IMG/VR virus record: IMGVR_UViG_3300029922_000199
Span: 1 to 34,725 of that record
From: a virus
Direction: 5' to 3' (one strand)
DNA length: 34,725 nucleotides
Shown: positions 48-34,725 of the stretch, in pieces
How the letters are laid out: the number at the start of each line of letters is the position of its first letter
How positions within the stretch are numbered: position 1 is the first letter of the stretch
Notes under the pieces: model-generated
Seen by the model: only the letters and a program-made list of their open reading frames with translations
Databases searched by the model: none
What the model was told of the DNA's origin: nothing
Made by a program: the position numbers and the translations under genes

Positions 48-76
48 TTGACACCCTCACTACCCCATGCTATATT
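48..76 (+). promoter_or_regulatory. sigma70-type promoter (TTGACA-N17-TATATT)
   Basis: TTGACA at 48-53, a 17-base spacer and TATATT at 71-76. The predicted start is near base 83, about 17 bases before the first ATG, with a purine-rich ribosome binding site between. It drives the three small rightward genes that follow. Confidence 0.85.
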
Positions 77-673: not shown

Positions 674-701
674 CTAACCCCTTCTTTCGGGCGGGGGTTA
701 G
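674..701. terminator. convergent stem-loop between the left cassette and terL
   Basis: CTAACCCC (674-681) pairs with GGGGTTAG (694-701), an 8-bp stem. It begins directly after the TGA of the rightward gene and overlaps the TAA of terL on the other strand. There is no long U-run either way, so it may act as an mRNA end or pause rather than a strong intrinsic terminator. Confidence 0.5.
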
Positions 702-1966
702 CGACCGTGGTTCCTGACCATGGAATATAGATCGAAGAAATCAGGATCAGCGGAAACCATGCGGAAAACAACATACTCCAAAGAGTCACAAAAGTCACTC
801 GCTTCCGGGTGAACTGCGGCTTTTTGGGGTTTTCCGTTGTCATCATAGCAACGTGTTTTCCAGGCCAGAATTAGATTCTTTACTGACTTGCAAACCTTCA
901 ATCTACCAGTGGCCAGCATCTTGTTTACGATGAAAACGCGCTCACTAATTGGCGGGTTAATGTTGGCTTGTTTTACATCCATTCCAGCTTGCATGAAAGA
1001 CGACATTTGAGCCTGAATAATCATCTTGCCGGAAGCGTCGGGATAATATGGGATTTCTTGACTAGGAAAATCCCGCCTAATATCTTCTGCCGCCATAGTG
1101 AAGTCTTTGAAACAAAACTCTTTGATGACGTACAGTGTCCCTGCCCTTTTAATGACAGCATTAGCGCAACTTGCCGCCGAGTTCATATCCTGGCCAACCG
1201 ACACCGTTTCCAGGTCTTCGGCCATCATGTCATTTACAACGCAATCACGCTCATTAAAGGCGGGATAGCATCTTCCCGAAGTGAGGTTTACGAACTCACC
1301 ATTTAGGTATGCCTCCCGTTCGTTCTCATCGTACAGGGCGTAAAGTCGCTGATAGTATGCCGGGTCAAGAAAGGTATTTAGTTCAGTTCGTCCACGGATG
1401 ATAACGAATGGTAATGCCTTTTCTCTCAGGTCTTCCGTGATCTGGTAAACGCCGCGCATACCCTGGGCAGTCGTAGTGAACACGGTAAAGGGCCGTCTAC
1501 CATCGGGCAACGGAACACGCGTACGCTCCTGAACTGCCTCGAATGCAAGCATGGCCCGGCTCTGCTCAAGTTCGTCAATTTCGTCCACGATGCTTATCGC
1601 GCTGTTTACACCATAGATCGCCGTTGGGTTTTCGGTAGGAATTACAACAAACTTAACCGAACCGATATAGATGACGTTTTCCTGCTTGTCGTATCTGTGG
1701 GGTATTTTCCCCATAATCAAAGCCTTAGAAAGTTCTTGCCAGATAGTTTTTCGGAATAGTGTAATTGTAGTCGAGAACACTGCGCACGTAACCTGATGAC
1801 CGTTGTATTTTCCTGCTATCGAAAGAATCAAAGCTACTGCCGCCGTGGATTTACCTGATGCGTAACCTCCGATTAAAAACCAGTATTCCACCCCTCGGTA
1901 TTCCTCTTGCCACGGCATATTGACAAGTTGGGCCTGATGTTTCAAAAGCGTTAGTTCATGTTTCAT
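698..1966 (-). CDS. terL: terminase large subunit (packaging ATPase-nuclease)
   Basis: The DNA packaging motor: an N-terminal ATPase drives DNA into the capsid and a C-terminal RNase H-like nuclease cuts the concatemer. Visible are a Walker A motif GGYASGKST near residues 33-41, Walker B SIVDEID near 125-131, an FTTT coupling motif near 163, and nuclease acidic residues in GQDMNS (D260) and ASDFCDSLEY near the C-terminus. The 422 aa length fits a compact TerL. The ATG at 1966 has GGGAG 5 bases upstream and overlaps the stop of the upstream homing endonuclease (ATGA), so the upstream TTG at 1978 is not needed. TerS lies 2.5 kb away and is separated by other genes. Confidence 0.95.
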   Translation of the reverse strand: MKHELTLLKHQAQLVNMPWQEEYRGVEYWFLIGGYASGKSTAAVALILSIAGKYNGHQVTCAVFSTTITLFRKTIWQELSKALIMGKIPHRYDKQENVIYIGSVKFVVIPTENPTAIYGVNSAISIVDEIDELEQSRAMLAFEAVQERTRVPLPDGRRPFTVFTTTAQGMRGVYQITEDLREKALPFVIIRGRTELNTFLDPAYYQRLYALYDENEREAYLNGEFVNLTSGRCYPAFNERDCVVNDMMAEDLETVSVGQDMNSAASCANAVIKRAGTLYVIKEFCFKDFTMAAEDIRRDFPSQEIPYYPDASGKMIIQAQMSSFMQAGMDVKQANINPPISERVFIVNKMLATGRLKVCKSVKNLILAWKTRCYDDNGKPQKAAVHPEASDFCDSLEYVVFRMVSADPDFFDLYSMVRNHGR

Positions 1967-2586
1967 GCAAACTCCCAATGATAGCCGGAAGAGGTTTTAG
2001 ACTGTCTTCTAAGGCAATGCGATATTTTACCACCGTCTTTTGATCCCATGGCAATACCAGCATCTTGTATGCTTTTATACACAATACCAGTTTCTACACA
2101 TCTTACCCGCTTAGATAGCTTTGCTTTTCTGTCTTCTGAAATTGTTCTACCCCTGTGTGCATCACCAATTCTTTTTCTAGTTATTTCTGAAGTCACCTTA
2201 CCAATTTGCCATGCACTCATTTTCTTCTTTGTTTCTTCAGAATGAGTTCTTCCTAATTGAGATTTTACACATTTGAGCCTAGTCTCATCCGACATTCTAC
2301 CGTGTTGACCACTAATCTTTAGATTATACCCATCCGGGTGAAGTGTCTTGTTTTCTGTTATTGCTAGAGCTTCCAATCTGTCTAGTTCCTTTTGATCGTC
2401 AATACCTCGATTTAATACAATGTACTCGAAAGCATTATAGCCATGTTTCTTAATTGCATTGTGAAACTTGGGGCAACCGCCGTTAGGATGCTGATGATCC
2501 CATTTCCTTTGTTCTTCATTCCAAGTCTGACCACAATAACCTTTTCCGGTAACCTTATGCCGGTACATATAGATAATTCCTTCCAT
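1963..2586 (-). CDS. GIY-YIG homing endonuclease with NUMOD3 and NUMOD1 modules
   Basis: A free-standing homing endonuclease. The N-terminus has the GIY-YIG core (GIIYMYR, then GYCGQTW), the middle carries NUMOD3-type repeats (SDETRLK, HSEETKKKMS, ISEDRKAKLS), and the C-terminus has a NUMOD1-like DNA-binding domain ending SGYHWEFA. These modules position the nuclease on a long DNA site. The ATG at 2586 has GGTGAG upstream; a TTG at 2598 is possible but less likely. Its TGA overlaps the terL ATG, so the two genes are translationally coupled. The gene is more AT-rich than terL, consistent with recent invasion next to a conserved packaging gene. Confidence 0.9.
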   Translation of the reverse strand: MEGIIYMYRHKVTGKGYCGQTWNEEQRKWDHQHPNGGCPKFHNAIKKHGYNAFEYIVLNRGIDDQKELDRLEALAITENKTLHPDGYNLKISGQHGRMSDETRLKCVKSQLGRTHSEETKKKMSAWQIGKVTSEITRKRIGDAHRGRTISEDRKAKLSKRVRCVETGIVYKSIQDAGIAMGSKDGGKISHCLRRQSKTSSGYHWEFA

Positions 2587-2599
2587 ACAACTCACCAAA

Positions 2600-3673: not shown

Positions 3674-3846
3674 CCCCACACCCCCTATATTGGCCGTCTT
3701 TCCGACCTGTCATCTGTATAACCTACAGAAAGATAGCACCTTACGGGTGCAAGTCGTCTGGACTCCCAAGTGATCATAGAAGGACGGTGCCGACCCATCC
3801 AAATCCCAGAACCTTAGCCGTTAGTTTATTTCTAACACTTGGTCGT
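3674..3846 (-). ncRNA. structured 5' leader RNA of a small-gene operon
   Basis: The transcript from the promoter at 3853-3881 would carry about 170 untranslated bases. Read on the minus strand it can form a closing helix CCAAGTG (3842-3836) with CACTTGG (3772-3766). This encloses GTTAG/CTAAC (3836-3820) and a 6-bp GGATGG/CCGTCC helix (3800-3782). Two more hairpins follow: GCACC/GGTGC (3750-3736) and CTGTA/TACAG (3728-3714). I recognise no known riboswitch class. That it acts as a cis-regulator or stable RNA is inference from structure and length. Confidence 0.45.
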
Positions 3847-3852
3847 ATCACC

Positions 3853-3881
3853 ATCCTATCACAACCTATCCACCGTGTCAA
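3853..3881 (-). promoter_or_regulatory. sigma70-type promoter (TTGACA-N17-TAGGAT), leftward
   Basis: Minus-strand TTGACA at 3881-3876, a 17-base spacer and TAGGAT at 3858-3853. It faces away from the rightward promoter at 3906-3934, with 24 bases between the two -35 boxes. It starts the structured leader and the small-gene operon ending at 2812. Confidence 0.8.
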
Positions 3882-3905
3882 CCATAAAACCATCGAAAGA
3901 TTCGG

Positions 3906-3934
3906 TTGACAGTGTTGGTAGTCCGTGGTATACT
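3906..3934 (+). promoter_or_regulatory. sigma70-type promoter (TTGACA-N17-TATACT), rightward
   Basis: TTGACA 3906-3911, a 17-base spacer and TATACT 3929-3934. Drives the three-gene rightward cassette 3956-4477. Confidence 0.85.
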
Positions 3935-3955
3935 GGTTTAAGAGTGAGGGAAGAT

Positions 3956-4099
3956 ATGAACACCGACAAGAACGAAATCAAACTTCCAGTACATCTTCAA
4001 GCCGCACTGGACAAGTACAATGCCAAGCTTGAAGCGTTTGGATTCACGGTGACCGACGTTACACCAGTCGGATACGGAAACATGTCTGATGACGAATAA
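3956..4099 (+). CDS. hypothetical phage protein, 47 aa
   Basis: Starts MNTDKNEIKLPVHLQAALDK and has a helical N-terminal half and an acidic tail. ATG 3956 is chosen because it lies downstream of the promoter and has GAGGGAAG before it; the longer upstream frame would start before the transcription start. Function unknown. Confidence 0.7.
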   Translation: MNTDKNEIKLPVHLQAALDKYNAKLEAFGFTVTDVTPVGYGNMSDDE

Positions 4100-4298
4100 A
4101 TGGCGGTACTTCAGCAAGTGGCGGGGATGCTGGTGCGAGTTCAGCACGCCACCTGGTGAAGTGGAATTGGCAAAGATGAGGCTTTTTCGTTATAGATTGG
4201 AATTGAATGGTGTTGAGGGCGTGCCAAGCTATAAAAGACACGTGACATTCTATGAAGAGTTCTACGAAAAGAATAGAAATATTTTAGGGGGAGAATAA
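4089..4298 (+). CDS. hypothetical phage protein, 69 aa
   Basis: Basic, aromatic product (MTNKWRYFSKWRGCWCEF at the start). It overlaps the previous gene by 11 bases and the next start by TAATG. The ribosome binding site is weak, so coupling to the upstream gene is likely. The family is not recognised. Confidence 0.65.
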   Translation: MTNKWRYFSKWRGCWCEFSTPPGEVELAKMRLFRYRLELNGVEGVPSYKRHVTFYEEFYEKNRNILGGE

Positions 4299-4477
4299 TG
4301 AACGAAGAAGAAAACAAGTGCTTTATTCGCGGTGCCGCATTGGTGCTCGCTGAAATCGCATGCGGTAACAATGTCAAAATGGCTTTAAAGTCTTGTGGTA
4401 TCAAGTCTTTGCAAGACCTGGAAGATGCCGAGGTTTCTTATCTTGACGTTGATCGACTCAGGTTTGTTTGGGAATAA
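4298..4477 (+). CDS. hypothetical phage protein, 59 aa
   Basis: ATG at 4298 overlaps the previous TAA and has AGGGGGAG upstream. The product begins MNEEENKCFIRGAALV and ends LRFVWE, mostly helical with three Cys that do not form a clear metal motif. It is the last gene of the cassette and converges on terS. Confidence 0.65.
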   Translation: MNEEENKCFIRGAALVLAEIACGNNVKMALKSCGIKSLQDLEDAEVSYLDVDRLRFVWE

Positions 4478-4492
4478 CCCACACTCCCGACC

Positions 4493-4969
4493 TCACTCCG
4501 GGGTTTTGGTGGGGAGGTGAAGCTCTACATTACTCATATCGGTGATAGGCTCAACCGTAATCCGAAGGCCACCAGATTCACTTACTGACTCGGGTTGCTT
4601 ATCTCTCCACTTATCCGGCCTTCGATTCTTTAGCCAATTCAAAGCGGCACCCGGTTCAGGGGCTATGTGAACATCATATTCAGCATCCTCAAGTGACCCA
4701 CCCACAACGACTTGCTTCTTCAATCGCAGGTCGTATCCGAGGGCACGTTTAAGGAAAGCGTTCTCGACTCTATCGTCGATAGAAGAGGCCCCGGATTGAA
4801 CCTTCTCTGAAAAATCGGGATATTCTATCTTCCAAGCGTAAAATGTACTGACGTTTATCCCCAAACCCTTAGCAATTTCCTCGTTCGTTAACCCCTGTTT
4901 TGCAAGGGCACCGGCCATTTTGGGAGTAGTGTTTGGATCGTACAGGCTGGGCCGTCCTGGTTCTGCCAT
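4493..4969 (-). CDS. terS: terminase small subunit-like DNA-binding protein
   Basis: TerS recognises the packaging site and delivers DNA to TerL. The 158 aa product has an N-terminal helix-turn-helix (LTNEEIAKGLGINVSTFYAW, about residues 26-45) of the type used by TerS proteins with homeodomain-like HTHs, and the ALNWLKNRRPDKWRDK segment near residues 108-123 that recurs in this family. It is last in the leftward operon beginning near 8854. Between it and terL lie a rightward cassette and a separate leftward operon, which is unusual since the two genes are normally adjacent. Confidence 0.85.
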   Translation of the reverse strand: MAEPGRPSLYDPNTTPKMAGALAKQGLTNEEIAKGLGINVSTFYAWKIEYPDFSEKVQSGASSIDDRVENAFLKRALGYDLRLKKQVVVGGSLEDAEYDVHIAPEPGAALNWLKNRRPDKWRDKQPESVSESGGLRITVEPITDMSNVELHLPTKTPE

Positions 4970-4978
4970 TCCGAAAGG

Positions 4979-5212
4979 TTACTCTAGTTTGGGCGAGATT
5001 GCAAGTTCGTCAATGTAATAGATGATTGCGGATGTCATGTCAGAGTATGAACAACCAGCATATTTACCAAGGACGGTTTCTAACATTGGTTCACCAGGAT
5101 AATCCTTTCTCACCATATCAATGTATTCATCTTCCATTGGCACAGCATCGTAAAGATTGGCAATTCTGTATGCGAACGCCATGACCTTCAAATCGTTTAC
5201 AATTTCTTTCAT
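4979..5212 (-). CDS. hypothetical phage protein, 77 aa
   Basis: Helical soluble product starting MKEIVNDLKVMAFAYR. No domain recognised. GGAG precedes the ATG by about 6 bases. It sits directly upstream of terS in the same operon. Confidence 0.7.
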   Translation of the reverse strand: MKEIVNDLKVMAFAYRIANLYDAVPMEDEYIDMVRKDYPGEPMLETVLGKYAGCSYSDMTSAIIYYIDELAISPKLE

Positions 5213-5215
5213 CCC

Positions 5216-5413
5216 TCACTCCTCTGCTTTGGGGTCAACGATGGTCCACGAATAGATGTAATCATATTCAAAGGACAATTCTACCCCGTCATCAAACGAA
5301 AACACTAGGCAATCATTCATGCCATCATCAATGCGACATGACAAGATCTTTTTACCACTGATCGAACTAGAAAGAAGTTCAATCGTTTTTCTACCGAAAT
5401 CAATATCTTTCAC
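5216..5413 (-). CDS. hypothetical phage protein, 65 aa
   Basis: Starts at GTG 5413, which follows the TAG of the upstream gene with no gap, with GGGTGAAG as the ribosome binding site. The product looks like an alternating beta protein (CLVFSFDDGVELSFEYDY). Function unknown. Confidence 0.65.
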   Translation of the reverse strand: MKDIDFGRKTIELLSSSISGKKILSCRIDDGMNDCLVFSFDDGVELSFEYDYIYSWTIVDPKAEE

Positions 5414-11317: not shown

Positions 11318-11347
11318 ATTCTAAATCATAGCAAAAGATTCTGTCAA
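11318..11347 (-). promoter_or_regulatory. sigma70-type promoter (TTGACA-N18-TAGAAT), leftward
   Basis: Minus-strand TTGACA 11347-11342, an 18-base spacer and TAGAAT 11323-11318. Drives the replication operon; divergent from 11363-11391. Confidence 0.75.
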
Positions 11348-11362
11348 GTGTCCTTTTTCCGG

Positions 11363-11391
11363 TTGACAAGCCCAAAAGGACACTATACAAT
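11363..11391 (+). promoter_or_regulatory. sigma70-type promoter (TTGACA-N17-TACAAT), rightward
   Basis: TTGACA 11363-11368, a 17-base spacer and TACAAT 11386-11391. Drives the recombination operon. Its position shows that the ATG at 11417, not the upstream ATGs, is the translation start. Confidence 0.85.
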
Positions 11392-13191: not shown

Positions 13192-13815
13192 ATGAAAAGA
13201 ATATGTAAGACTTGCGAAACGGAAAAAGATATCGAATATTTCATCCATGGGCATAGGGATTGCAGAGATTGCTATAATGAAAAAAGAAGGCAATATAGAT
13301 GGGAAAATGTTACAAAAATAAGAAAAGAAGATGTTCTTAGAAAGAGAATACAAAACTCTAAAGATAGAACGGAAATATATTTGAATCAAGGAAAAACCTG
13401 TAAGGTTGATCAGGAAGACTTTGACTGGGTTGTTCAATGGAAATGGACATATTTTCAATGTGGATATGCCGGAAGAAAGGTGGATAAAAAGCTAATATAT
13501 CTTCATAGATTAATAATGGGCAATCCTGCTGGAAAAACTATAGACCATATAAATGGAGATACGTTAGACAACAGAAGGGAGAATCTAAGAATATGCACTC
13601 ACGCAGAAAACCTTAGAAACGTTAAAATGCATAAAAACAACACTTCTGGTTATAGGGGTGTAACGTGGGATAAGAGATATGGAAAGTGGGCTTCAAGAAT
13701 AAAATACAATTACAAGAATATTCATCTGGGTTTTTTCAACGATCCAGAAGTAGCATATGAAAGATACAAACAAGAAGCTGTAAAACTATTTGGCGAATAC
13801 GCCAGACTAGAATAG
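13192..13815 (+). CDS. HNH homing endonuclease with AP2 DNA-binding domain
   Basis: The N-terminus has a small zinc motif (CKTC, then CRDC; residues 5-27). The HNH nuclease core is HRLIMGNPAGKTIDHINGD plus NRRENLR (about 105-134), and an AP2 domain (TSGYRGVTWDKRYGKWASRI, then LGFFNDPEVAYERY) occupies 151-205. This is the usual free-standing phage HNH-AP2 homing enzyme. The gene is markedly AT-rich compared with its neighbours and has its own promoter, both signs of insertion between the DUF669 and nuclease genes. No real ribosome binding site precedes the ATG. Confidence 0.9.
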   Translation: MKRICKTCETEKDIEYFIHGHRDCRDCYNEKRRQYRWENVTKIRKEDVLRKRIQNSKDRTEIYLNQGKTCKVDQEDFDWVVQWKWTYFQCGYAGRKVDKKLIYLHRLIMGNPAGKTIDHINGDTLDNRRENLRICTHAENLRNVKMHKNNTSGYRGVTWDKRYGKWASRIKYNYKNIHLGFFNDPEVAYERYKQEAVKLFGEYARLE

Positions 13816-14731: not shown

Positions 14732-14981
14732 GCTTTGCGGGATTAAGAAAAATGCTAAGGACTTGGATGTTCACCACCTTGACCCCTCGGATTATTTTAA
14801 CTTGACAGAATCTAAGTTCAAGATTCTTTGCACGGATTGCCATGCTTACATTGAACGTAGCGCCTTGCGTTTGGGTGGCCGAGAACCATTCCCCAACCGT
14901 GAATTATTCCTTGCATGGGCCGGTGAGTTTGTTCCAACCGTAGAACGCAAGTACGGATTTCCTGTCAAGACTGGTAATTAA
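14640..14981 (+). CDS. HNH endonuclease-family protein, 113 aa
   Basis: CELC and CTDC form the zinc-binding pairs, and LDVHHLDPSDYFNLTESKFK, followed by CHAYIE, is the HNH core, typical of compact phage HNH proteins near recombination or packaging genes. Lack of an AP2 or NUMOD domain suggests a resident phage nuclease rather than a homing enzyme. AAGGGA precedes the ATG. Last rightward gene of this block. Confidence 0.85.
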   Translation: MNGTEKTRYRARKEWREFRLNLIKTRGPKCELCGIKKNAKDLDVHHLDPSDYFNLTESKFKILCTDCHAYIERSALRLGGREPFPNRELFLAWAGEFVPTVERKYGFPVKTGN

Positions 14982-15001
14982 AACAGGCCCTTTCGGGCCC
15001 G
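14981..15001 (-). terminator. intrinsic terminator of the NAMPT/Prs operon
   Basis: On the minus strand GGCCC-GAAA-GGGCC (14999-14986) is followed by TGTTTTAA. It lies directly after the NAMPT-like stop codon. Confidence 0.8.
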
Positions 15002-15004
15002 TGA

Positions 15005-16474
15005 TTATCTCTGACTCTTTAATCTATCCCGAATCTCTTGGAAGGTAACTTCGTTTAGAAGTTTCCCATCCTTGAAAATTGGCCTTAGAATTGAATCCTC
15101 TTGATCTTCTAGGAATCCGTCAGTCATCCAGATAAGACCCTCTTTAACGTCTTCCAAAACGGAAACTCGCCCTTTCTGGGAAACCTTCGTCCCGTTGTCG
15201 GTTACTGGTTTCTTGAATAGCGCCCGTTTCTCACCGCCGAATTGCCCGAAGGTTGTCTTGAGCGCAAATCCGAATGTGTCACGGGTGTTGAACTGGTAGG
15301 TATATGAACCAATTCCATAAACAACGTTAACCGATGCGAAACCCTTCAATTCAAGAGCTTTACAAATCTCTTCAGCTCTCCAGCGTGTAATTGCATCTCC
15401 GTAGATTACTCCGACGTGTGAATCCAGGACTTTGTAACCCTGATCGGTAATGGTTCCGCCAAAGGTATCCCATAGCAGTTCCACAACACCATTTCTAGCC
15501 CTTGGATCAGAAGACTGTGAATCACCTGTCAGAATCTTAACGGGGTCGCCAGAATCGGGCCTAACCACCATTCTGCCATCCCTGGCCAAGATAACATCTT
15601 TCAACTGGGGAATGACTTCGGTGATAACCTTCCACAGGTCCCAAGTATCGGAAACAACCGAGAAGAACCCGGATGGATAAACCGTTGTCAATAGGTGACG
15701 GAATGCGGCAACCTCATCAAGCCCCAAGGATTCCATGACAGAGTGTTCCGTAGCCGGAATACTGGTCCCGATCAATTCCTTTTCGATATCAGCCCCATAA
15801 AACTCCTCAGTGGCCAAAATTGCCGGGATAGTATCGGTCCCCACAAAAGACAGGAGGTGGCCCATCCCGCTCATCTTAGCGGCTTCAAGGCCCTCCATCC
15901 CACGGAATGAGAAGTCATGTCCCTGGAATTGCACCCCATTAGTTGAACCCGTTGTTTTGATCGCATATCCGTCAAGAATCCTTCGGTAATCCTTGGCGAT
16001 TGTTGCGGCGGTAGCCGGTTGCCAAAGTTCGGCGCTCATCAAGGATTCAATGAAGTTGGTCAACCAAAAGAATCTTGGTTCCGTGTTTTCGATGGTCAAC
16101 ATCGGAACGCGAAGAGGAACGGTAGTTCCCTCAGGGACAGCCTTAATCAGCAATGGGAGATATCCGAATTGGTGGAGCTCTCTGATATGCGAATCATCGG
16201 GATTGGCAATTCCAAGGCAAGACTTTAGAACTCTGCTGTATTCTTCGGCAACTTCATTTTCTGGACGGTCAAAGAAATTGGTCTGGAAATATGTTAAGAG
16301 ATATTTCTTGACGAATGCTTGGAATCCGAAGGCGACAACCTTGGAAATCTCAGGGAGTAACGATCCCCTGGGTGTCCAGGTCGAGTAAATGACCTCCGTG
16401 TCTTTGGGGTATTGGTTTTTGTGACTGACTTTGTAAAAGTCGCACAATAGCGAAGCGGGATAAATATAGCTCAT
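15005..16474 (-). CDS. nicotinamide phosphoribosyltransferase-like enzyme, probable NARP1 Namat
   Basis: Full-length NAMPT fold (489 aa; human NAMPT is 491). Conserved active-site positions are visible: DFYKVSH (residues 12-18), HDFSFRG (187-192), GTDT with D214, PATEHS with H244, and VVRPDSGDP with R305 and D307. Canonical NAMPT joins nicotinamide to PRPP to give NMN. When paired with a Prs-like gene in phages, this protein has been shown to join nicotinamide to ADP-ribose-pyrophosphate to make NAD+ directly (Namat of NARP1). The Prs-like gene ends 11 bases upstream and AGAGGAGG precedes the ATG. Fold assignment is secure; substrate is inferred from the pairing. Confidence 0.9.
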   Translation of the reverse strand: MSYIYPASLLCDFYKVSHKNQYPKDTEVIYSTWTPRGSLLPEISKVVAFGFQAFVKKYLLTYFQTNFFDRPENEVAEEYSRVLKSCLGIANPDDSHIRELHQFGYLPLLIKAVPEGTTVPLRVPMLTIENTEPRFFWLTNFIESLMSAELWQPATAATIAKDYRRILDGYAIKTTGSTNGVQFQGHDFSFRGMEGLEAAKMSGMGHLLSFVGTDTIPAILATEEFYGADIEKELIGTSIPATEHSVMESLGLDEVAAFRHLLTTVYPSGFFSVVSDTWDLWKVITEVIPQLKDVILARDGRMVVRPDSGDPVKILTGDSQSSDPRARNGVVELLWDTFGGTITDQGYKVLDSHVGVIYGDAITRWRAEEICKALELKGFASVNVVYGIGSYTYQFNTRDTFGFALKTTFGQFGGEKRALFKKPVTDNGTKVSQKGRVSVLEDVKEGLIWMTDGFLEDQEDSILRPIFKDGKLLNEVTFQEIRDRLKSQR

Positions 16475-16485
16475 AGAGCCTCCTC

Positions 16486-17310
16486 TTAGATTCTTGCCTT
16501 AATGGCGTTGATCTTTTCATGGGTCTTTTCATGGACCATGGAATCGGTAGTAAATACGAACGAGAAAAACGGATCATCAAGAAGTTTTCCCGAGAAAATG
16601 GAGTTTTCACAATGGGCAACCACAAGACACCCGCCATCAATTCCGGCTTCTTCCAATGCCCTAGCTCCACCGATGAAAGTACCCCCATAAGCGCAAAGAT
16701 CATCAATCATGATGACGTTTCGGCTTGGCTCCTGAACTTGTCCGATTTCGATGGACAGGATTTTTCCTGTTGCGAAGTCCCTTTTCTTGCTTCCTACAAT
16801 ATACCTAATTCCTGGGAACATCTTAGAATAACGCTTTTCTGCCCCGGCGTCTGGGAAGTATAGATGATCTTGCAAAGGATCAAAGAATGTTTGTTCCATG
16901 GCAATTTTTACGAGTTCAGGAGTTAGCCATACCGTTCGGCTATTGCGGATAATGGCCGGAGATACGTCCGAATGCGGCTCACCGATAAGAACCTCACGAT
17001 AACCAAGCCCGTTGATAATGTCGGCGACATGGCGAAGGGTAAAGGCGCTATCGTTCTCTGTTCGGTCCATCCTGGAATATGGAAGATATGGAAGTGTTAG
17101 CCCCTTGGCCGCTCCCCACCCAAGGTCATCGAGATACTTTGAAACCAGGATTAAATGGAATAGATCAAGATCAGTTTCGTAGTTCATTCTCACAAGTGGG
17201 AATGTCCAGTCATGTCCCTTACCAGTGAGTAGCTTCCTGAGTTCTGGAATAACCGTTTCACCGTTCGGATATGGCTTAAAATACAGTTTTGTACCGTTTA
17301 CGAATATCAT
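16486..17310 (-). CDS. Prs-like pyrophosphokinase, probable NARP1 Adps
   Basis: Ribose-phosphate pyrophosphokinase family: PNGE (residues 15-18), PYLPYSRMDR (74-83, the counterpart of the PYFGYARQDR-type segment of Prs), FPDAGAEKRY (152-161) and the PRPP-loop-like VIMIDDLCAYGGTF (199-212). At 274 aa it is shorter than bacterial Prs (about 315 aa), with a diverged N-terminal half. In NARP1 the enzyme annotated this way (Adps) pyrophosphorylates ADP-ribose. First gene of a two-gene operon behind the promoter at 17326-17354. An alternative role, PRPP supply for NMN synthesis, cannot be excluded. Confidence 0.9.
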   Translation of the reverse strand: MIFVNGTKLYFKPYPNGETVIPELRKLLTGKGHDWTFPLVRMNYETDLDLFHLILVSKYLDDLGWGAAKGLTLPYLPYSRMDRTENDSAFTLRHVADIINGLGYREVLIGEPHSDVSPAIIRNSRTVWLTPELVKIAMEQTFFDPLQDHLYFPDAGAEKRYSKMFPGIRYIVGSKKRDFATGKILSIEIGQVQEPSRNVIMIDDLCAYGGTFIGGARALEEAGIDGGCLVVAHCENSIFSGKLLDDPFFSFVFTTDSMVHEKTHEKINAIKARI

Positions 17311-17325
17311 ATTACCCCCTATCTC

Positions 17326-17354
17326 ACCCTACAATATCCCGTGCTATCTGTCAA
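17326..17354 (-). promoter_or_regulatory. sigma70-type promoter (TTGACA-N17-TAGGGT) of the NAD+ operon
   Basis: Minus-strand TTGACA 17354-17349, a 17-base spacer and TAGGGT 17331-17326. An AGGGGG ribosome binding site follows. It sits immediately after the terminator of the upstream RtcB operon, so the pair is an independently expressed unit. Confidence 0.75.
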
Positions 17355-17355
17355 C

Positions 17356-17382
17356 AAAAAAACCGGGTGATTAGCCCGGTTT
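17356..17382 (-). terminator. intrinsic terminator of the RtcB operon
   Basis: On the minus strand AAACCGGG (17382-17375) pairs with CCCGGTTT (17367-17360), and the T-run continues to 17356. A clean rho-independent terminator. Confidence 0.9.
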
Positions 17383-17898: not shown

Positions 17899-18077
17899 GG
17901 ATACACCCCCTTATTATCAAAATAATCCAGCGCATACTGGATACTGAACTGAGTCAGTGAATTAGCGGACAAGTGAACGGTATTGTACTTTGCATCGTTC
18001 TCAGACAAATGCTCGTCAATCCTATCCTTCAAGTCCGCTGGAATCTTGTTATTGAACTGTTTCTTTTCTTCGGTCAA
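17889..18077 (-). CDS. small ribbon-helix-helix-like protein, 62 aa
   Basis: KQFNNKIPADLKDRIDEHL followed by two further helices fits the size and layout of an Arc/MetJ-type ribbon-helix-helix protein, though the match is loose. Starts at TTG 18077 inside the overlap TTGA with the rtcB stop, with AAAGGAGG inside the rtcB 3' end. Could be an operon regulator; not proven. Confidence 0.55.
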   Translation of the reverse strand: MTEEKKQFNNKIPADLKDRIDEHLSENDAKYNTVHLSANSLTQFSIQYALDYFDNKGVYPWE

Positions 18078-19183
18078 ATGTGGCCTCCTTTAATCTTATC
18101 TTCTGAACCCGCCTTGAAATTGTAGAACGGTTTGACAAACTCTATCACGTCAACCGTGTCTGCGATGTTGGCAAGAATCACGTCTTTGTCTTTGTAGGCT
18201 CCGGGGGCTTCGTCCAGGGTGTTGACGTTCGCGGTAGTAGTATACACTCCTTCCATTTGAGTCTTGAAGTCCTCTACCGAAAGACGTTTCTTAGCTTGTG
18301 CCCGGCTCAAGATTCTTCCCGCCCCATGAGGTGCCGAGAAGTTCCATGCCGTATTTCCCTTACCAGAACAAATAGCCAAACCGTCCCGCATATTGAAAGG
18401 AATGATGAGCTTTTCCCCTAGTTTGGCCGAAGTTGCACCCTTTCGGATCATGTTGTCGTCGCCGATGAAGTTGTGAATCGACTCGATGACCTCGACAATT
18501 TCCATGTTTAAAAAGTCGGTTATCCGCTTCATCATGACTTTTCGGTTTATACTGGCGAACCGTTGAGCAACAGCCATATCATGCAAGTAATCAGAACCGT
18601 CATCGGATTCAAGATCAAGGCCGTCAAGATCGTTAATCCCGGCTTTCTTCTGGTAAACATCGGCGACGCATTTCCCAAAGTTCCTTGAACCGGAATGAAT
18701 TGTGATACAGATATTCCCGTTAGAGTTTTTACCGGCTTCAATGAAGTGGTTCCCGCCGCCTAAAGAACCAACGGCCCGAAGCGCCTTTTCGGCGTCAAGT
18801 CCGATTCGTTGACAAACTTCCGTTACTTCATTGGTCAAGTATCCATGATCTTCCAACTTTTCATTGGAGTGGAAACCGGACGGGATATTTGACTTAATGA
18901 AGTCGTCAAGTTGTTCAACATTGAAGTCCTCGAAATCCTTGACTACGTTCATGAGCATACCGCAACCAATGTCAACGCCGATGATGTTAGGAATCACAAT
19001 AGAACCTAGCGGCATTGTGAACCCAACAACAGCACCCTTCCCGGCATGACAATCCGGCATAACCGCAATATTGCCCTCGGCCATGTTTGGATGGTCAACA
19101 AAACTTTGAATCTGTTCCCGTGTAGTTTCGTCGATTTCTTCAATCATGACGTTCGCGGAATTGTACCTTCCCTTTATTACCAT
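18074..19183 (-). CDS. rtcB: RtcB-type RNA-splicing/repair ligase
   Basis: Joins RNA 3'-phosphate or 2',3'-cyclic phosphate ends to 5'-OH ends using GTP and Mn2+. Hallmarks are visible: PDCHAGKG (43-50), GVDIGCGM with metal ligands D71 and C74, GGGNHF (142-147), HSGSRNFG (162-169) and the guanylylated-His motif PHGAGR with H285. At 369 aa it is slightly shorter than E. coli RtcB (408 aa). ATG 19183 is chosen because it follows the promoter and has GGGAGGGGGATGAG upstream. Phage RtcB could repair tRNAs cut by host anticodon nucleases. Confidence 0.95.
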   Translation of the reverse strand: MVIKGRYNSANVMIEEIDETTREQIQSFVDHPNMAEGNIAVMPDCHAGKGAVVGFTMPLGSIVIPNIIGVDIGCGMLMNVVKDFEDFNVEQLDDFIKSNIPSGFHSNEKLEDHGYLTNEVTEVCQRIGLDAEKALRAVGSLGGGNHFIEAGKNSNGNICITIHSGSRNFGKCVADVYQKKAGINDLDGLDLESDDGSDYLHDMAVAQRFASINRKVMMKRITDFLNMEIVEVIESIHNFIGDDNMIRKGATSAKLGEKLIIPFNMRDGLAICSGKGNTAWNFSAPHGAGRILSRAQAKKRLSVEDFKTQMEGVYTTTANVNTLDEAPGAYKDKDVILANIADTVDVIEFVKPFYNFKAGSEDKIKGGHI

Positions 19184-19200
19184 CTCATCCCCCTCCCACC

Positions 19201-19229
19201 ACCATACTACCAATCAATAGGCTAGTCAA
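19201..19229 (-). promoter_or_regulatory. sigma70-type promoter (TTGACT-N17-TATGGT) of the rtcB operon
   Basis: Minus-strand TTGACT 19229-19224, a 17-base spacer and TATGGT 19206-19201, followed by the rtcB ribosome binding site. Confidence 0.8.
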
Positions 19230-27751: not shown

Positions 27752-28456
27752 TTATGCTCCGTTTCTTACAAAGACTTGCGGTGCCGTGCAAACCGCCTTG
27801 AAAAGTGCCTGAATAATCCAAAGGTTAGCCAATGAAAGAGGTGTAATGTAGCTGATAATAATGTCAGAATCTGGAAAATAGGAAGGGTCCGTTGATGATA
27901 GGAATCCACCAGTAGTCAATCCGACTCCAGACAATCCGTGTGCGGTATCGGTGACCGGATATGTCGCCGAGGTTCCTAGTGTAAATTGATTGTAGTTTCC
28001 TGGACGGTAAGCATAATTCAACGTTCCAAAACTCGCGGCGATTTTATCAATACTAACCCACGAAAGGCCGTACCATTTTAGATACGCAAAGGCCTTTAAC
28101 AAAATACGGTAACTGGTAATGGGCATGAGCCCCGCCGTCGACGTTGCATCGGAGGCCAATGGTCCCCCGGTCAATAGTCCGACTCCCGATAATCCACGAT
28201 ATGACGACTGTGGATAACTCGCCGAAGTCCCAATAATGAAAGAGTTAGTATCGAAAGTCCCCAAGGGTGCCGATGGCCACGGAAGGCCGACAAGATACCC
28301 GATAGCCGTTAACTCTGCACTAGCGGCGTTATCAATGTTTAGCCCGTACCAATAGCTGATAATTGGATCGGATAGAGCGTACTGATCCTCCACCGTTTGC
28401 ATGGTTCCCTGAGCAAGAGGACCAGAAAGCTGTTTAGCTAGATAATTGCTACTCAT
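27752..28456 (-). CDS. baseplate/tail protein with internal repeat, 234 aa
   Basis: Position between baseplate J and the tail fibre fits a gpI/DUF2612-type baseplate protein. The N-terminal part (ELTAIGYLVGLPWP) is typical of such proteins. Two copies of a segment LGTSATYP...GLSGVGLTTGG are present (about residues 73-100 and 157-184), an internal duplication. Coupled to the J gene by ATGA. Confidence 0.7.
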   Translation of the reverse strand: MSSNYLAKQLSGPLAQGTMQTVEDQYALSDPIISYWYGLNIDNAASAELTAIGYLVGLPWPSAPLGTFDTNSFIIGTSASYPQSSYRGLSGVGLLTGGPLASDATSTAGLMPITSYRILLKAFAYLKWYGLSWVSIDKIAASFGTLNYAYRPGNYNQFTLGTSATYPVTDTAHGLSGVGLTTGGFLSSTDPSYFPDSDIIISYITPLSLANLWIIQALFKAVCTAPQVFVRNGA

Positions 28457-29622
28457 GGACCGCTTGTCCAGAATATGTTAGCCGTTGAAAATGACGGGTA
28501 TTCGTTTGCCGGTACAATGGCGTTTCTCGAATACGTCACACCGTCAATCGAAACGGTGACACCTGTAATCGTGGCATAAGTGAAGTTGTCTAGCGGTCCC
28601 TGAGAAATTGACTGAGCAGTAATGGATTGACCAACGGTGAATGTCGAGTTTTGGGCGACGATTAGATTCTTTGCAATCGTATCCGCACCAGCAATAAGCG
28701 GCATTGTCGGATCATAGTAAATTGTCACGTATACGTTCTGAGGCGTTGCAATGTCATAATTAACCGTCAGGGTTTGGCCCGACAGGTAAGTATAAGTCTC
28801 CGAAGAAGTTCCATCGGTCGGTGCGGTCATGCGTGTGGCATAGGTTGTCGCCAACTCCCCCGATACGTCACCACCCTGTATCACAATCCTCGCATGACGG
28901 GGCTGGACGGTCACGCCACCATTCAAGGTCAACACCGCCACTGTATCGGAATTAAAAAACACGTTTGCCGAGATGATTCCTTGCAATGCCCGTATAGCGG
29001 TAATCGTGCCATTGAGATCCCAGTTAACCGTTCCGTTCCCGGCGACAAGTCTTTGACGGTATGTGGCAGTCGTTTCCGTGGCACTTCCCTGCGTAGAGCT
29101 GGCTGGATTCGTGACGGTCTGGACGTTTGGGATGGAAGTAGAGAACGAGGTAACTTGACCGGCCAAGGCAAGATATGGCCCGGCAGTATCAGCGGTACAG
29201 AATACAGCGACGGTTGTCCCGGCGGGAATCACGGTGGTAGTCCCGACGACAAAGTTAATCCCGTTCCACGGAGCCAGCGTTCCGGAGTTAACGGTGGCAC
29301 TTCCAGCGGCGGCGGCAGTGACGTTTAGCGAAACCGTGGAATACGTGGCCGGAAGCGGCGATGTCCCCGCTACCGGGGCTAGATTCAGTACCTGACTATC
29401 ATCGCAAGTAACCACGTTAAACGACTGACTAGCGGCGTACAGTTTGGCGTCATAAGCCTGTTGCAATCCACCGACTCCGAGGTAATTCAACCAAATAGCA
29501 TTAGTCGGGGAGGCCACTAGGGTCGGGGCGACATTCAGATTATTCAGGTAAGTAAGGTTAGTTTGTGAATGAGTCGCGGCGCTTTGTGGCGTCCAGGTAA
29601 TTCCGTTTACAGTCCAGCTCAT
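28453..29622 (-). CDS. baseplate J-like wedge protein, 389 aa
   Basis: Contains the conserved middle of the baseplate J/gp47 family (TYRQRLVAGNGTVNWDLNGT, then ALQGIISANVFFN) and a C-terminal domain with SGQTLTVNYDIATPQNVYV. It forms the baseplate wedge of contractile-tailed phages. Flanked by the presumed gp25-like gene upstream and the gpI-like gene downstream, the usual order. Confidence 0.88.
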   Translation of the reverse strand: MSWTVNGITWTPQSAATHSQTNLTYLNNLNVAPTLVASPTNAIWLNYLGVGGLQQAYDAKLYAASQSFNVVTCDDSQVLNLAPVAGTSPLPATYSTVSLNVTAAAAGSATVNSGTLAPWNGINFVVGTTTVIPAGTTVAVFCTADTAGPYLALAGQVTSFSTSIPNVQTVTNPASSTQGSATETTATYRQRLVAGNGTVNWDLNGTITAIRALQGIISANVFFNSDTVAVLTLNGGVTVQPRHARIVIQGGDVSGELATTYATRMTAPTDGTSSETYTYLSGQTLTVNYDIATPQNVYVTIYYDPTMPLIAGADTIAKNLIVAQNSTFTVGQSITAQSISQGPLDNFTYATITGVTVSIDGVTYSRNAIVPANEYPSFSTANIFWTSGP

Positions 29623-29960
29623 TTATCCACCACCGCAACGGTTAATTTGTCGTTTACAAGATCGTACTGAGGACGGAAGTTGGGCAGGTTCGTGGCGATT
29701 AGGTTCGACTTAATCTGACCGTCCACCACTCCGAAGTTCACTTGACCGGTGAAAAACTCGACCCACTGGACACCAAAACCCGGAAGTTGAGGGATTGCGC
29801 CTTGCTGTAGATATGCGGCCATTTGAGCGTGTTGGGCATCTTCGATGGACCCAGTAGTTCCGGCGTCGGTTAGGACGGGGACGACATTCCCCTGAACGAG
29901 ATAATCGAACGTCTGGTAATTGTTTGGAGATGTCGAAGATGATTGAAGGGCCATATCCAT
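29619..29960 (-). CDS. small baseplate protein, gp25/W-like by position, 113 aa
   Basis: Lies directly before baseplate J, the usual place of the gp25/W wedge protein, and is coupled to it by ATGA. The sequence (FDYLVQGNVVPVLTDAGTTG, then WVEFFTGQVNFGVVDGQIK) does not itself prove the family. The ribosome binding site is weak. Confidence 0.6.
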   Translation of the reverse strand: MDMALQSSSTSPNNYQTFDYLVQGNVVPVLTDAGTTGSIEDAQHAQMAAYLQQGAIPQLPGFGVQWVEFFTGQVNFGVVDGQIKSNLIATNLPNFRPQYDLVNDKLTVAVVDK

Positions 29961-29973
29961 GCGGGTATATTAC

Positions 29974-30618
29974 CTAAGCCTTAAGCAACAATGCAAGGTT
30001 AGCCCTGTCGGTTGCAATATTCGCTATTGCAGTGGCCGAAGCGGTTGCCATAGCGGCGGATTGTGCAACCAGAGTACCGGCGTTCAATCCCGTGGTGAAT
30101 GTTAGCAATGCCGTTGCCAGTGCGAACATATGAGAATCGAAAGAATCCAGGAGCGTGAAAAGTGATTGCGAATTGTTCTTTATTTGACCGAGTGCAGAAG
30201 CGTCAACATTGATTTGGAATGCTGGTGCCGAGATATTCTGCAAAGGTATCGCCTTCAAAGTTTCCTGATTGTAATGCGGAAAATCGCTAGGCGGTTGGCT
30301 CGGAACCTGAATGCCCTTCGTGCTACTGACAAACTGTTTCAGTCCCACAAGCAATACACCATCCCCAACCGCTATAGGCCACGTTATAGCGGCACTTGCC
30401 GAACCGGGGAAGATTACCTCGACTGCCGTTGAAACCGTCGAGGGAACCGCCGTCCCGTCGATATACTGCCCTTGTACGGCATGGGTTACGTCAACGGTCT
30501 TGTCGGCGTTAACCGCCTTGACGATTCCATAGTCCACAATAAACGATTGTGCGATGTTTTGACGGATAATGTCGCCGAGATTGTATTGGAGTCCGGCTAG
30601 TTCGTTAATGTTATTCAT
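29974..30618 (-). CDS. Gp138-like baseplate spike/OB-fold protein, 214 aa
   Basis: The N-terminal half (FIVDYGIVKAVNADKTVDVT, then WPIAVGDGVLLVGLK) matches the Gp138 N-terminal OB domain of membrane-piercing spikes or baseplate V proteins. The C-terminus is Ala-rich and helical. No good ribosome binding site precedes the ATG, unusual in this window. Immediately upstream lies the divergent gene at 30657. Confidence 0.8.
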   Translation of the reverse strand: MNNINELAGLQYNLGDIIRQNIAQSFIVDYGIVKAVNADKTVDVTHAVQGQYIDGTAVPSTVSTAVEVIFPGSASAAITWPIAVGDGVLLVGLKQFVSSTKGIQVPSQPPSDFPHYNQETLKAIPLQNISAPAFQINVDASALGQIKNNSQSLFTLLDSFDSHMFALATALLTFTTGLNAGTLVAQSAAMATASATAIANIATDRANLALLLKA

Positions 30619-30620
30619 GG

Positions 30621-30649
30621 TAGACAGTATCCAATATACGGTTTATTAT
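30621..30649 (+). promoter_or_regulatory. rightward promoter placed for a leaderless mRNA (TAGACA-N17-TATTAT)
   Basis: TAGACA 30621-30626, a 17-base spacer and TATTAT 30644-30649. Transcription would start at about 30656-30657, the A of the ATG. It overlaps the 5' region of the leftward Gp138-like gene. Confidence 0.6.
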
Positions 30650-30656
30650 TGCAAAC

Positions 30657-30935
30657 ATGAGAAGTGGACTTAAACCCGTTCGAGATGCGTATTACAGTCT
30701 TTGCCTTGAGGTAATCACAAGCGCCGTTGACGATATTGTGTACTATCGAAACGCAACGACGAAAGACAAACGAGGCCGTCATTGGAACGAACGGATGAAA
30801 GATGGAAAGATGGCGACGGCGTTTCTTCTTTCTGACTTCAATATCTATTTCGACTATGTCGAACTGAGAAAGGATCTTGTCATCGAAGAGATGCTTAAAC
30901 GTCTTCACGATCCTGACGCCTGGGGAACTTCATAG
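30657..30935 (+). CDS. lone rightward protein inside the tail block, 92 aa
   Basis: Product begins MRSGLKPVRDAYYSLCLEVI and ends DPDAWGTS, and has a charged helical body. Codon use looks like true coding sequence, unlike the antisense frame. It lies between two leftward baseplate genes, overlaps the end of the hub gene by 31 bases and has its own promoter but no ribosome binding site. This is the typical profile of a moron-type gene or late insertion. The family is not recognised. Confidence 0.7.
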   Translation: MRSGLKPVRDAYYSLCLEVITSAVDDIVYYRNATTKDKRGRHWNERMKDGKMATAFLLSDFNIYFDYVELRKDLVIEEMLKRLHDPDAWGTS

Positions 30936-31843
30936 GTGTTCAGCGCCAATACGGTCATAGCGTTTTGATTCGTGACGGTGTTGTAATTCAGACTCACCGT
31001 TTGGACGATCATTAACCCGTCCGGTTGATAGGTAATCTGAGCCCCCCCGAAGGTTTGACGGAAATAGAGTGGGTCAATTTGAATCACAATTCCGGGCCTG
31101 ATCTTGGGATTCCACGGGGCAACGAAAGTGATTCCCGAAGCCGTTGCCATGGGCGGAGATGATAGCCAATTGATTTGGATAGCACCTTCACCCGTCCGGC
31201 CCTTGTTTGGGGTGTAGATTATCAGGTTGGTTCCGTCGATTAGGTAGGCAATCTTCCATCGGTCTTTGATCTTGTTTAGGCAGTCGATGGGCTTGCCTTG
31301 GAAGTTGAAACCGGCAATATCGGTACTCTTGGGGGTGGTGCTGGTAACGTGAACCGGCAAGGCTTTCAAAAAACTGCTATTGACAAGTTTCCACGGTGTC
31401 CCCGTTGACGACAACCCAATAATCAAAGCATCGAAAATGGTATCCGTGGTCATTCCTGCGTTCGGATAAGTGTTGACGGTAATGTCCCGATTCAAAACAT
31501 CCTCAGCATGACCCACCAACAAGGAAATAAACGTCACCCCATCCGGCGATGGGCTTTCCTGATAAGCGACCTTGACTTGACCGGAGAGCGTCGCACTGTC
31601 GGAATTGTGTTTGTATCCCGCCGTTATGGTCATCCATTTATAGGATGACAGGGGAACGGAGGGGTAGTAATTGACTATCCTGATTTCCACTTCGTTCATA
31701 ACGTCCGAAGGGCGGAAGGTAGCGGAAAGGGTGATATTAGGTTTGTATCCTGTGTCGGGAATGACGATAGAATCAATGGGGGTCGCACTATTCACCGAGT
31801 CAAAGAAGTGCAATTCTATTGACTTGTCAAAAAGTTGGTTCAT
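30905..31843 (-). CDS. baseplate hub protein (gp27/gpD-like), 312 aa
   Basis: Matches the layout of phage hub proteins: two barrel-like domains (TLSATFRPSDVMNEVEIRI, then DVLNRDITVNTYPNAG) and a middle region TPKSTDIAGFNFQGKPIDCL, continuing IKDRWKIAYLIDGT. It would form the trimeric base on which the spike sits. ATG 31843 overlaps the upstream stop (ATGA). Confidence 0.8.
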   Translation of the reverse strand: MNQLFDKSIELHFFDSVNSATPIDSIVIPDTGYKPNITLSATFRPSDVMNEVEIRIVNYYPSVPLSSYKWMTITAGYKHNSDSATLSGQVKVAYQESPSPDGVTFISLLVGHAEDVLNRDITVNTYPNAGMTTDTIFDALIIGLSSTGTPWKLVNSSFLKALPVHVTSTTPKSTDIAGFNFQGKPIDCLNKIKDRWKIAYLIDGTNLIIYTPNKGRTGEGAIQINWLSSPPMATASGITFVAPWNPKIRPGIVIQIDPLYFRQTFGGAQITYQPDGLMIVQTVSLNYNTVTNQNAMTVLALNTYEVPQASGS

Positions 31844-32142
31844 GCCCAAACGATCCAATACATTGACACACTTGACAGGTCATTTTGACCCAGTGTGGTC
31901 AGGGTGGACATTAGCACAAGCCCATAGTCAGGATACGCCGTCCAAGCGGTTACACCAGGAACGGTTGACGCTAAACGAACCGAACCGTCGGCCATTGTTA
32001 CCGAAAGTATCCACGCCGAATTAACCCACTGGAAAAGGAATCCATAGACGTTTCCCGCTATTTTGGAGGTGAATTGGAGAGAGTACGGATTGACACCAGC
32101 CACGGGCAACGGGACGGCATAGGCGGTCTTATAGGCCCTCAA
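31840..32142 (-). CDS. baseplate plug-like protein (DUF6983), 100 aa
   Basis: AGVNPYSLQFTSKIAGNVYG, followed by a YGFLFQW and WILSVTMADG pattern, fits the small baseplate plug family that sits between a Dit-like protein and the hub. Overlaps both neighbours by ATGA. Confidence 0.75.
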   Translation of the reverse strand: MRAYKTAYAVPLPVAGVNPYSLQFTSKIAGNVYGFLFQWVNSAWILSVTMADGSVRLASTVPGVTAWTAYPDYGLVLMSTLTTLGQNDLSSVSMYWIVWA

Positions 32143-32816
32143 AACAGGCCACCTATAACGGAAGAGAAATTAGCAACGGCGAGTCCCTGAGTTACACCCC
32201 GGGGAACAGGATCGGCACCAGGGATGCTACCGGATGGAATGCCGGCAGAAGAACCGGAGTTGAATTTAAGAATGGGAATCTCCTGCAAGGTCATCGTCAC
32301 GGGAATCTGATTTTGCACCAATGGCTGTTTTTCTAGGTCAAGATGCTTGATTCCGACCCATACCGATTCTTCACCGTTAGGCGTCTGAAAAACGAGAACT
32401 TGACGGGACGTCCTCATGTCTTTCAACAACTTTTTCGACTTGGCAAGGTCGGCCTGTAAAAGCGGCGTTGCGAGTTCCCCCATGGTAATCCCATTTACGA
32501 CATTCAAAACCGCCATTCCTTGCGACGGTCCAATGTAACCCGTTAGTCCCCACGTTCTGGGTTTCGGGGCGATATTGTCGGAAATCCAAGTCTTACCGCC
32601 TTCCTTTTCATCGACAATCAATTGGCTAGAAATATCATCGTCCCCGATATCATGATATGAGGCCCCCAAAATTACGACAACATTGGTAGCGTCGGGAACC
32701 GGATATCCGAACCAACCATTTGCGAGGTCCATACTAATCCGTGGATTACTCAAGTAATTCTTAATGAGGTTCAACGCTTGTGTCGATCCGCTGATTAGTT
32801 GGGAGGTTAGGCTCAT
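32139..32816 (-). CDS. Dit-like/DUF6046-type tail protein, 225 aa
   Basis: ISSQLIVDEKEGGKTWISDN, then APKPRTWGLTGYIGPSQ and PLVQNQIPVTMTLQEIPI, resemble the distal-tail (Dit-like) or LysM-region tail proteins found after the tape measure. It connects the tube to the baseplate. Coupled to the tape measure by ATGA. Confidence 0.75.
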   Translation of the reverse strand: MSLTSQLISGSTQALNLIKNYLSNPRISMDLANGWFGYPVPDATNVVVILGASYHDIGDDDISSQLIVDEKEGGKTWISDNIAPKPRTWGLTGYIGPSQGMAVLNVVNGITMGELATPLLQADLAKSKKLLKDMRTSRQVLVFQTPNGEESVWVGIKHLDLEKQPLVQNQIPVTMTLQEIPILKFNSGSSAGIPSGSIPGADPVPRGVTQGLAVANFSSVIGGLF

Positions 32817-34084
32817 TGTGTTAAACTACCATCAAATGCTTTTGAGGTCACATTACCAGATTTATCAATGTTCAAATATAAATGAATAACGTTCTGTTTT
32901 ACGCTAGACTCAACTTGAGAAATCGTAGATAGGCTATTTTGTCCAGACCCCAACCGCTTATCTCGTTCAGCATAAAACTCGTTGTCCATAGCTATCATCG
33001 TGGCGCTGGGGAGTTTTTCAGAGAATGAGGAAAATCTTGTTTTTGCATCTTGAAGTGCCGTGTAATCTTTCCAGGAAAACCCGCTTTTGTAAGCATCGTA
33101 GGCGGACCCAAAACCGCCAAGAATTTCTAGCCTTGCCCCAGGTTCCGAGGCGGTTCCTAAGATTCCGCTAGATTGCAACCAATCTTCTTTTTTTTGAAGA
33201 TCGCTATACGTCTTTCCAATCGCATCGAAGAAATCACCGATTCCCTTCATCAGTCCGTCAAAGAACTTGGATATATCGGCTTGGTGAGCTTCAATGAAGA
33301 GTACAAATTTTTCCAGTGGTTTACGGAGATGGTCGGCCGCAATATCCCCAACAGTTTTGAAAGTTTGGCCAAGATCCGTCGTTACACGATTGAACGCCAA
33401 CATATTAGCCAATGCGTTAGGATCATTTGGCGTTGAGCTTTTTGCGGACTGCTTCTCTAGGTCATAGATGTTTTTATATGGACTATTTGGCGTGTCAAAC
33501 GTAAACATCATGTTTCTAAATGAATCACCGAATATCTCAGCAGAACGGTTTATCAATGCCGTTCTCTTATCACCAGAAGCGCCGTTTATCCTATCGGCAA
33601 TCATGTTCATTCGTTCGGTCTGAGATGCTTTCTTGAACTTGTTTATATCAATACCGGCATTGTTTTTGTCAGTAAAATAGGCGAGCTTGTCGGCCAATGC
33701 AGACCATTTTTCGCCACCACCGCCCGCAAGCTCGGTCATAGCATCGTTTACTTGTGCTAGGTGAGACGCTAGGTCATCAGCGTTTTGTCCTATGAGACTC
33801 ATTCCAACAGACCATTTGTTGAACTCATCCAATTTCATTCCGGAGCCGGTGGCGCTTACAGAGGCTTTACCCTGAATCTGAGAAACGGCATAGGCGGCAC
33901 CTACTGCGGCGGCTCCTATGGCTGTCAAACCCTTGATTGCATCCCCCACGAAAGTCCCAAAGGAAAGACCTGTCTTCTTGATCTTTTCCTCTATAGACCC
34001 TAGATCCTTTTGGGCTTTATCGAATGAGGCTTGATCAGTTTGGAGTTTTAGCGAGGCAAAAAACCCGCCTACCGAAGTTGCCAT
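32813..34084 (-). CDS. tape measure protein, 423 aa
   Basis: Determines tail length and is ejected with DNA. The N-terminal SLKLQTDQASFDKAQKDLGS is the usual start of phage tape measures, followed by a hydrophobic segment (GLTAIGAAAVGAAYAVSQI, about 50-68) and helical regions. At 423 aa it predicts a short tail. Its start overlaps the frameshifted tail chaperone end by 16 bases. Confidence 0.85.
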   Translation of the reverse strand: MATSVGGFFASLKLQTDQASFDKAQKDLGSIEEKIKKTGLSFGTFVGDAIKGLTAIGAAAVGAAYAVSQIQGKASVSATGSGMKLDEFNKWSVGMSLIGQNADDLASHLAQVNDAMTELAGGGGEKWSALADKLAYFTDKNNAGIDINKFKKASQTERMNMIADRINGASGDKRTALINRSAEIFGDSFRNMMFTFDTPNSPYKNIYDLEKQSAKSSTPNDPNALANMLAFNRVTTDLGQTFKTVGDIAADHLRKPLEKFVLFIEAHQADISKFFDGLMKGIGDFFDAIGKTYSDLQKKEDWLQSSGILGTASEPGARLEILGGFGSAYDAYKSGFSWKDYTALQDAKTRFSSFSEKLPSATMIAMDNEFYAERDKRLGSGQNSLSTISQVESSVKQNVIHLYLNIDKSGNVTSKAFDGSLTQ

Positions 34085-34637: not shown

Positions 34638-34725
34638 TACACAAAACTCCCATAGTTGAACGTGCAAGCGTAGTTAGGCAGGTCGTTACCGGCGAGTTTG
34701 ATCGGAGGGTGGGATTCATGGGTCA
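34637..34725 (-). CDS. C-terminal end of an upstream tail gene (partial)
   Basis: 29 codons are visible, containing PPIKLAGNDLPNYACTFNYG and ending SFV. Its TAA overlaps the chaperone ATG. By position it should be a tail tube or completion protein; the sequence is too short to decide. The start lies beyond the window. Confidence 0.7.
   Translation of the reverse strand, partial: THESHPPIKLAGNDLPNYACTFNYGSFV

Follow-up and report, generated by a model that had tools for sequence, protein, structure and literature searches.

A probable NARP1 operon for NAD+ reconstitution in a virus genome from IMG/VR

NARP1, reportedly first described by Osterman et al. in 2024 (doi 10.1038/s41586-024-07986-w, cited in PMC11984713), relies on two enzymes and acts after a host has depleted its own NAD+ to arrest infection. 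ADP-ribose and nicotinamide are the products of NAD+ cleavage by host NADase defences. Adps (a kinase of the Prs fold) places pyrophosphate from ATP onto ADP-ribose with the formation of ADPR-PP, Namat (a transferase of the NAMPT fold possessing an adenine-gripping clamp) joins ADPR-PP with nicotinamide into NAD+, and restored NAD+ allows phage replication to continue despite the host defence. The pairs of Bacillus phage SPbetaL1 (133 kb; Adps WIT26982, Namat WIT26983) and of Paenibacillus foliorum, the latter found on a bacterial contig, are reported to be active (PMC12774641). Adjacent Adps and Namat genes are also present in the 120 kb Alicyclobacillus phage KKP_3916, where both products are annotated as hypothetical proteins, and Staphylococcus phage Baghdad has the adps-namat arrangement as well. 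Another protein of the NAMPT fold, NadV of Haemophilus ducreyi pNAD1 (PDB 9KE8/9KEO), makes NMN (PMC6095924). Here, we consider positions 14983-17354 (minus strand) of the 34.7 kb virus record IMGVR_UViG_3300029922_000199, which is referred to below over its whole length of 34,725 bases as the window. The two-gene cassette located there very probably represents a NARP1 operon, predicted from its sequence to rebuild NAD+ from ADP-ribose and nicotinamide so that the phage could still replicate. The gene pair, the family membership of its products and their key residues were established computationally, while the chemistry and the counter-defence role we infer from what has been published on the NARP1 of SPbetaL1, P. 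foliorum and DyoEdafos. The cassette agrees with that of SPbetaL1 in the order and adjacency of its genes, in the folds and catalytic residues of their products and in the clamp-helix motif, with identity of 61% for Namat and about 44% for Adps; P. foliorum has equal gene order and Namat 62% identical to that of the window, and for KKP_3916 the identities are 61% (Namat) and 41% (Adps). H. ducreyi NadV is about 50% identical to window Namat but, unlike it, has lost the clamp residues and is not accompanied by an Adps gene.

The original prediction of an operon composed of two genes only, Prs-like and then NAMPT-like, and closed by an intrinsic terminator is reproduced by adjacent ORFs separated by 11 bp, each preceded by its own ribosome-binding site, and by a stable hairpin with a T-rich tail (Table 1). 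Since a second terminator hairpin is situated just upstream of the promoter, the cassette is insulated at both ends. The promoter itself had been described as near-consensus, which holds for the perfect -35 hexamer and the spacer but is overstated for the -10 element, and this signal, read from the sequence, was not picked up in the consensus promoter scan. Four near-consensus promoters of sigma-70 type are present elsewhere in the window at 48-76 (+), 3906-3934 (+), 11363-11391 (+), and 11347-11318 (-), each having perfect TTGACA and 5/6 matches in the -10 element, that is, closer to consensus than that of the cassette; two of them are divergent around 11347-11363.

Table 1. Genes and expression signals of the cassette and its borders.
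Feature	Coordinates	Strand	Description
adps	16486..17310	-	Prs-like ORF, 274 aa, Prs fold; predicted ADP-ribose pyrophosphate synthetase
namat	15005..16474	-	NAMPT-like ORF, 489 aa, clamp motif GSYTYQFNTRD; predicted nicotinamide ADP-ribose transferase
adps ribosome-binding site	17315..17320	-	AGGGGG, 4 nt 5' of ATG; from sequence
namat ribosome-binding site	16479..16484	-	AGGAGG, 4 nt 5' of ATG; from sequence
Operon-closing intrinsic terminator hairpin	14983..15002	-	8 pairs, -15.8 kcal/mol, z -3.35, T-rich tail after
Intrinsic terminator hairpin ending the upstream gene	17360..17382	-	8-bp stem and T run, -13.3 kcal/mol, z -3.20
Probable promoter	17326..17354	-	TTGACA-17 bp-TAGGGT; perfect -35 (17354-17349), -10 TAGGGT (17331-17326) 3/6

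The NAMPT-like protein matches nicotinate phosphoribosyltransferase PRK09198 of NCBIfam with 543 bits (cut-off 405) and nicotinamide phosphoribosyl transferase phrog_448 of PHROGs, both being broad names that leave the substrate undecided. Comparison with known structures is more specific. The best PDB sequence matches are 9W5X/9W5W (680 bits), which according to the data statement of PMC12774641 are crystal structures of SPbetaL1 Namat, followed by HdNadV 9KE8 (516 bits) and mammalian NAMPT (about 226 bits), and the AlphaFold2 model (pLDDT 92.5, built from 32 sequences) ranks them in the same order, with Namat crystals first (TM 0.94-0.95), HdNadV next (0.92-0.93) and human NAMPT below (0.87-0.88). 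All residues of the catalytic core, namely Asp13, Tyr15, Phe189, Arg192, Asp215, His245, Arg306, and Asp308 in SPbetaL1 numbering, are identical in the window. The intactness of active sites proposed originally for both enzymes was upheld, but it equally fits Prs and NAMPT, so that the discriminating evidence comes from the clamp, the phosphate loop and phylogeny.

The motif specific for Namat was defined as GSX-Phi-X-Phi-X-Phi-TRD with residues 3 and 7 engaging adenine (PMC12774641), and the window protein agrees with it, reading GSYTYQFNTRD with aromatics in both these positions. Contact positions were compared in an alignment of 166 relatives. For 123 of them the locus fetched includes an Adps gene, and these constitute the paired set. 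Ser391 and Ala/Ser362 are found there in 123/123 proteins, Phe/Tyr392 in 122 and Tyr/Phe396 in 114 of them, whereas in the NadV set the residues are Gly362, mostly Ala391, Gln392, and Arg396, and the NAMPT set carries Gly391 together with Gly or Ala at 392. Having A362, S391, Tyr392, and Phe396, window Namat is of Namat type at all four positions and does not match the NAMPT/NadV signature, i.e., Gly362 and the missing aromatic pair; the corresponding aromatics of SPbetaL1 are F392 and Y396. The deviation concerns the clamp loop, whose stacking residue, Arg40 in SPbetaL1 and also Arg in P. foliorum, is replaced by Leu. Position 40 is occupied by Arg in 92 and by Lys in 27 of the paired relatives with other residues in 4, and within this set only KKP_3916 has Leu in common with the window. 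Since this third position of the loop is described as typically Arg, Lys or Tyr and the loop as variable (PMC12774641), Arg40 was not treated as obligatory. It is conceivable, albeit rather unlikely, that the window and KKP_3916 represent a small Namat variant gripping adenine by aliphatic Leu without the Arg40-Asp400 salt bridge and possibly having a relaxed or altered choice between ADPR-PP and PRPP as donors.

The Prs-like protein scores 62.7 bits against TIGR01251 (ribose-phosphate diphosphokinase), under the curated cut-off of 113, and 199.8 bits against phrog_619. Modelled with AlphaFold2 (pLDDT 93.7), it shows the Prs fold, with sequence identity of about 17-20%. As an Adps, the protein is rather divergent, its highest identity being about 43-46% and its terminal branch having a length of 1.41. 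Its shortness, originally taken as fitting a changed substrate, is real (274 aa versus 315 in E. coli Prs), but length alone is weak evidence for this. More indicative is the phosphate loop. In E. coli Prs, the loop DDMIDTGGT holds the 5′-phosphate of ribose-5-phosphate, and window Adps has DDLCAYGGTF instead. Thr or Ser before GGT/GRT occurs in 0/97 readable Adps loops (28 more were unreadable by the pattern) versus 7/7 readable Prs loops. Judging from what is generally known about the active site of Prs, such an altered loop would be compatible with a substrate whose 5′ phosphate sits in a pyrophosphate bridge, as in ADP-ribose.

Phylogeny was reconstructed for 47 proteins in the case of Namat and for 36 in the case of Adps, the latter with few Prs references (four proteobacterial Prs and one archaeal fragment). 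SPbetaL1 and P. foliorum (locus L105) share with window Namat a set of 11 rows (99/98), and window Adps falls into a 95/96 set with the Adps of the same two sources, Prs standing apart at 100/99. DyoEdafos NARP1, reported to be active in vitro, branches far deeper than the window in the Namat tree, so activity spans the clade. The simplest rival reading, ordinary salvage in which Prs and NMN-forming NAMPT feed the host NMN adenylyltransferase, profits from the folds and catalytic residues being common to Prs and NAMPT and from the fact that Namat itself accepts PRPP in vitro too (PMC12774641). Nevertheless, it is very improbable, being opposed by both trees, by the AU tests rejecting window Namat forced with NAMPT (p-AU 0.0075) and window Adps forced with Prs (p-AU 0.0035), by the presence of the Namat clamp residues, by the altered phosphate loop and by the TIGR01251 score below the cut-off. 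Both proteins group with Adps and Namat and not with Prs and NAMPT, the latter clustering having been named beforehand as refuting, and in combination with the clamp motif and the absence of the usual Prs phosphate loop this supports the proposed NARP1 identity as far as sequences can tell. NARP2, another phage pathway to NAD+ combining NAMPT with NMN adenylyltransferase, could likewise account for a NAMPT-fold gene in a phage, but its probability is negligible: the NARP2-type proteins, that is, NAMPTs residing beside adenylyltransferase/Nudix genes (Ccr32, Moby, RpAliso), form with other NAMPTs one side of the tree (100/99), and gene content refutes this pathway as the partner gene in the window is Adps and not adenylyltransferase.

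A further rival is the idea of a NadV-like reversion, implying that the preference for ADPR-PP was lost with Leu40 and that the window protein acts mainly on PRPP. Besides the replacement of Arg40, it is favoured by the AU test, in which window Namat forced with NadV was not rejected (p 0.43), and NadV is therefore excluded more by residues and gene content than by this test. Aromatics 392/396, Ser391 and Ala362 are kept in the window and lost in proteins of HdNadV type, the window operon includes intact Adps whereas the fetched NadV loci are devoid of it, and single clamp mutations in SPbetaL1 Namat bring a loss of only 1.3- to 1.7-fold (PMC12774641), which together leave this explanation scarcely credible in comparison with a NARP1 operon. 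Pasteurellaceae NadV (pNAD1 nadV at 3828-5315 of locus L005; loci L128-L152) falls inside the Namat clade in a set supported at 97/99, with p-AU of 0.061 against its placement with NAMPT; no Adps gene was found in the fetched loci, and the clamp residues are lost, with Gln in place of F392, Arg in place of Y396, Ala in place of S391, and Gly in place of A362. This is suggestive of a Namat that may have gone back to NMN formation. Two Namat relatives from Desulfotomaculaceae (L126 and L156, GSFTYQRKTRD) keep one aromatic clamp residue and have Arg at the second, and no Adps gene was found in their fetched flanks.

The window (46% G+C), in which terminal repeats and tRNA genes were looked for and not found, carries terminase genes at the left end (698-1978, minus strand), its right end (27752-34667, minus strand) is taken up by a tail module of contractile type, and no head genes were recognised in its 34,725 bases. 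The tail module is collinear with that of the 49 kb Tetrasphaera phage TJE1, and TerL is 42% identical. Since head genes of TJE1 fill about 14 kb between TerL and the tail genes, the record is probably a fragment, and the complete TJE1-related phage probably measures about 48 kb. Of 1,938 annotated phage records with a relative of window Namat (NAMPTs included), a spread of 60 was sampled, and the smallest of these is 72.8 kb, so NARP1 in a phage of about 48 kb looks uncommon. IMG/VR scans with terminase and baseplate proteins gave no close relatives of the phage, the scan with Adps found nothing, probably because the short peptide patterns used are not conserved, a DNA-level search of annotated phages returned zero matches, and PADLOC has no model matching either protein. 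Two likely homing endonucleases, GIY-YIG/NUMOD3 (1963-2598, minus strand) next to TerL and HNH/AP2 (13192-13815, plus strand), are also encoded. An RtcB-type tRNA ligase gene (18074-19213, minus strand) is situated 763 bp upstream of adps. RtcB with 38% identity also resides beside NARP1 in two viral loci (L023/L025), apparently copies of a single locus. For the RtcB-like genes near NARP1 in several Paenibacillus loci identity is only 25-27%, and these may be host genes that are unrelated. For these reasons, an RtcB-NARP1 "repair island" was set aside, and clustering of damage-repair genes may be regarded as possible.

Taken as a whole, the window presents a clear but ordinary further example of the known NARP1 and a fairly distant member of it. 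Leu at clamp position 40 offers a natural test of how important the published clamp loop is, and the family gains a distant NARP1, compactly arranged with a terminator and a probable promoter of its own, from a phage that is probably of medium size and contractile-tailed.
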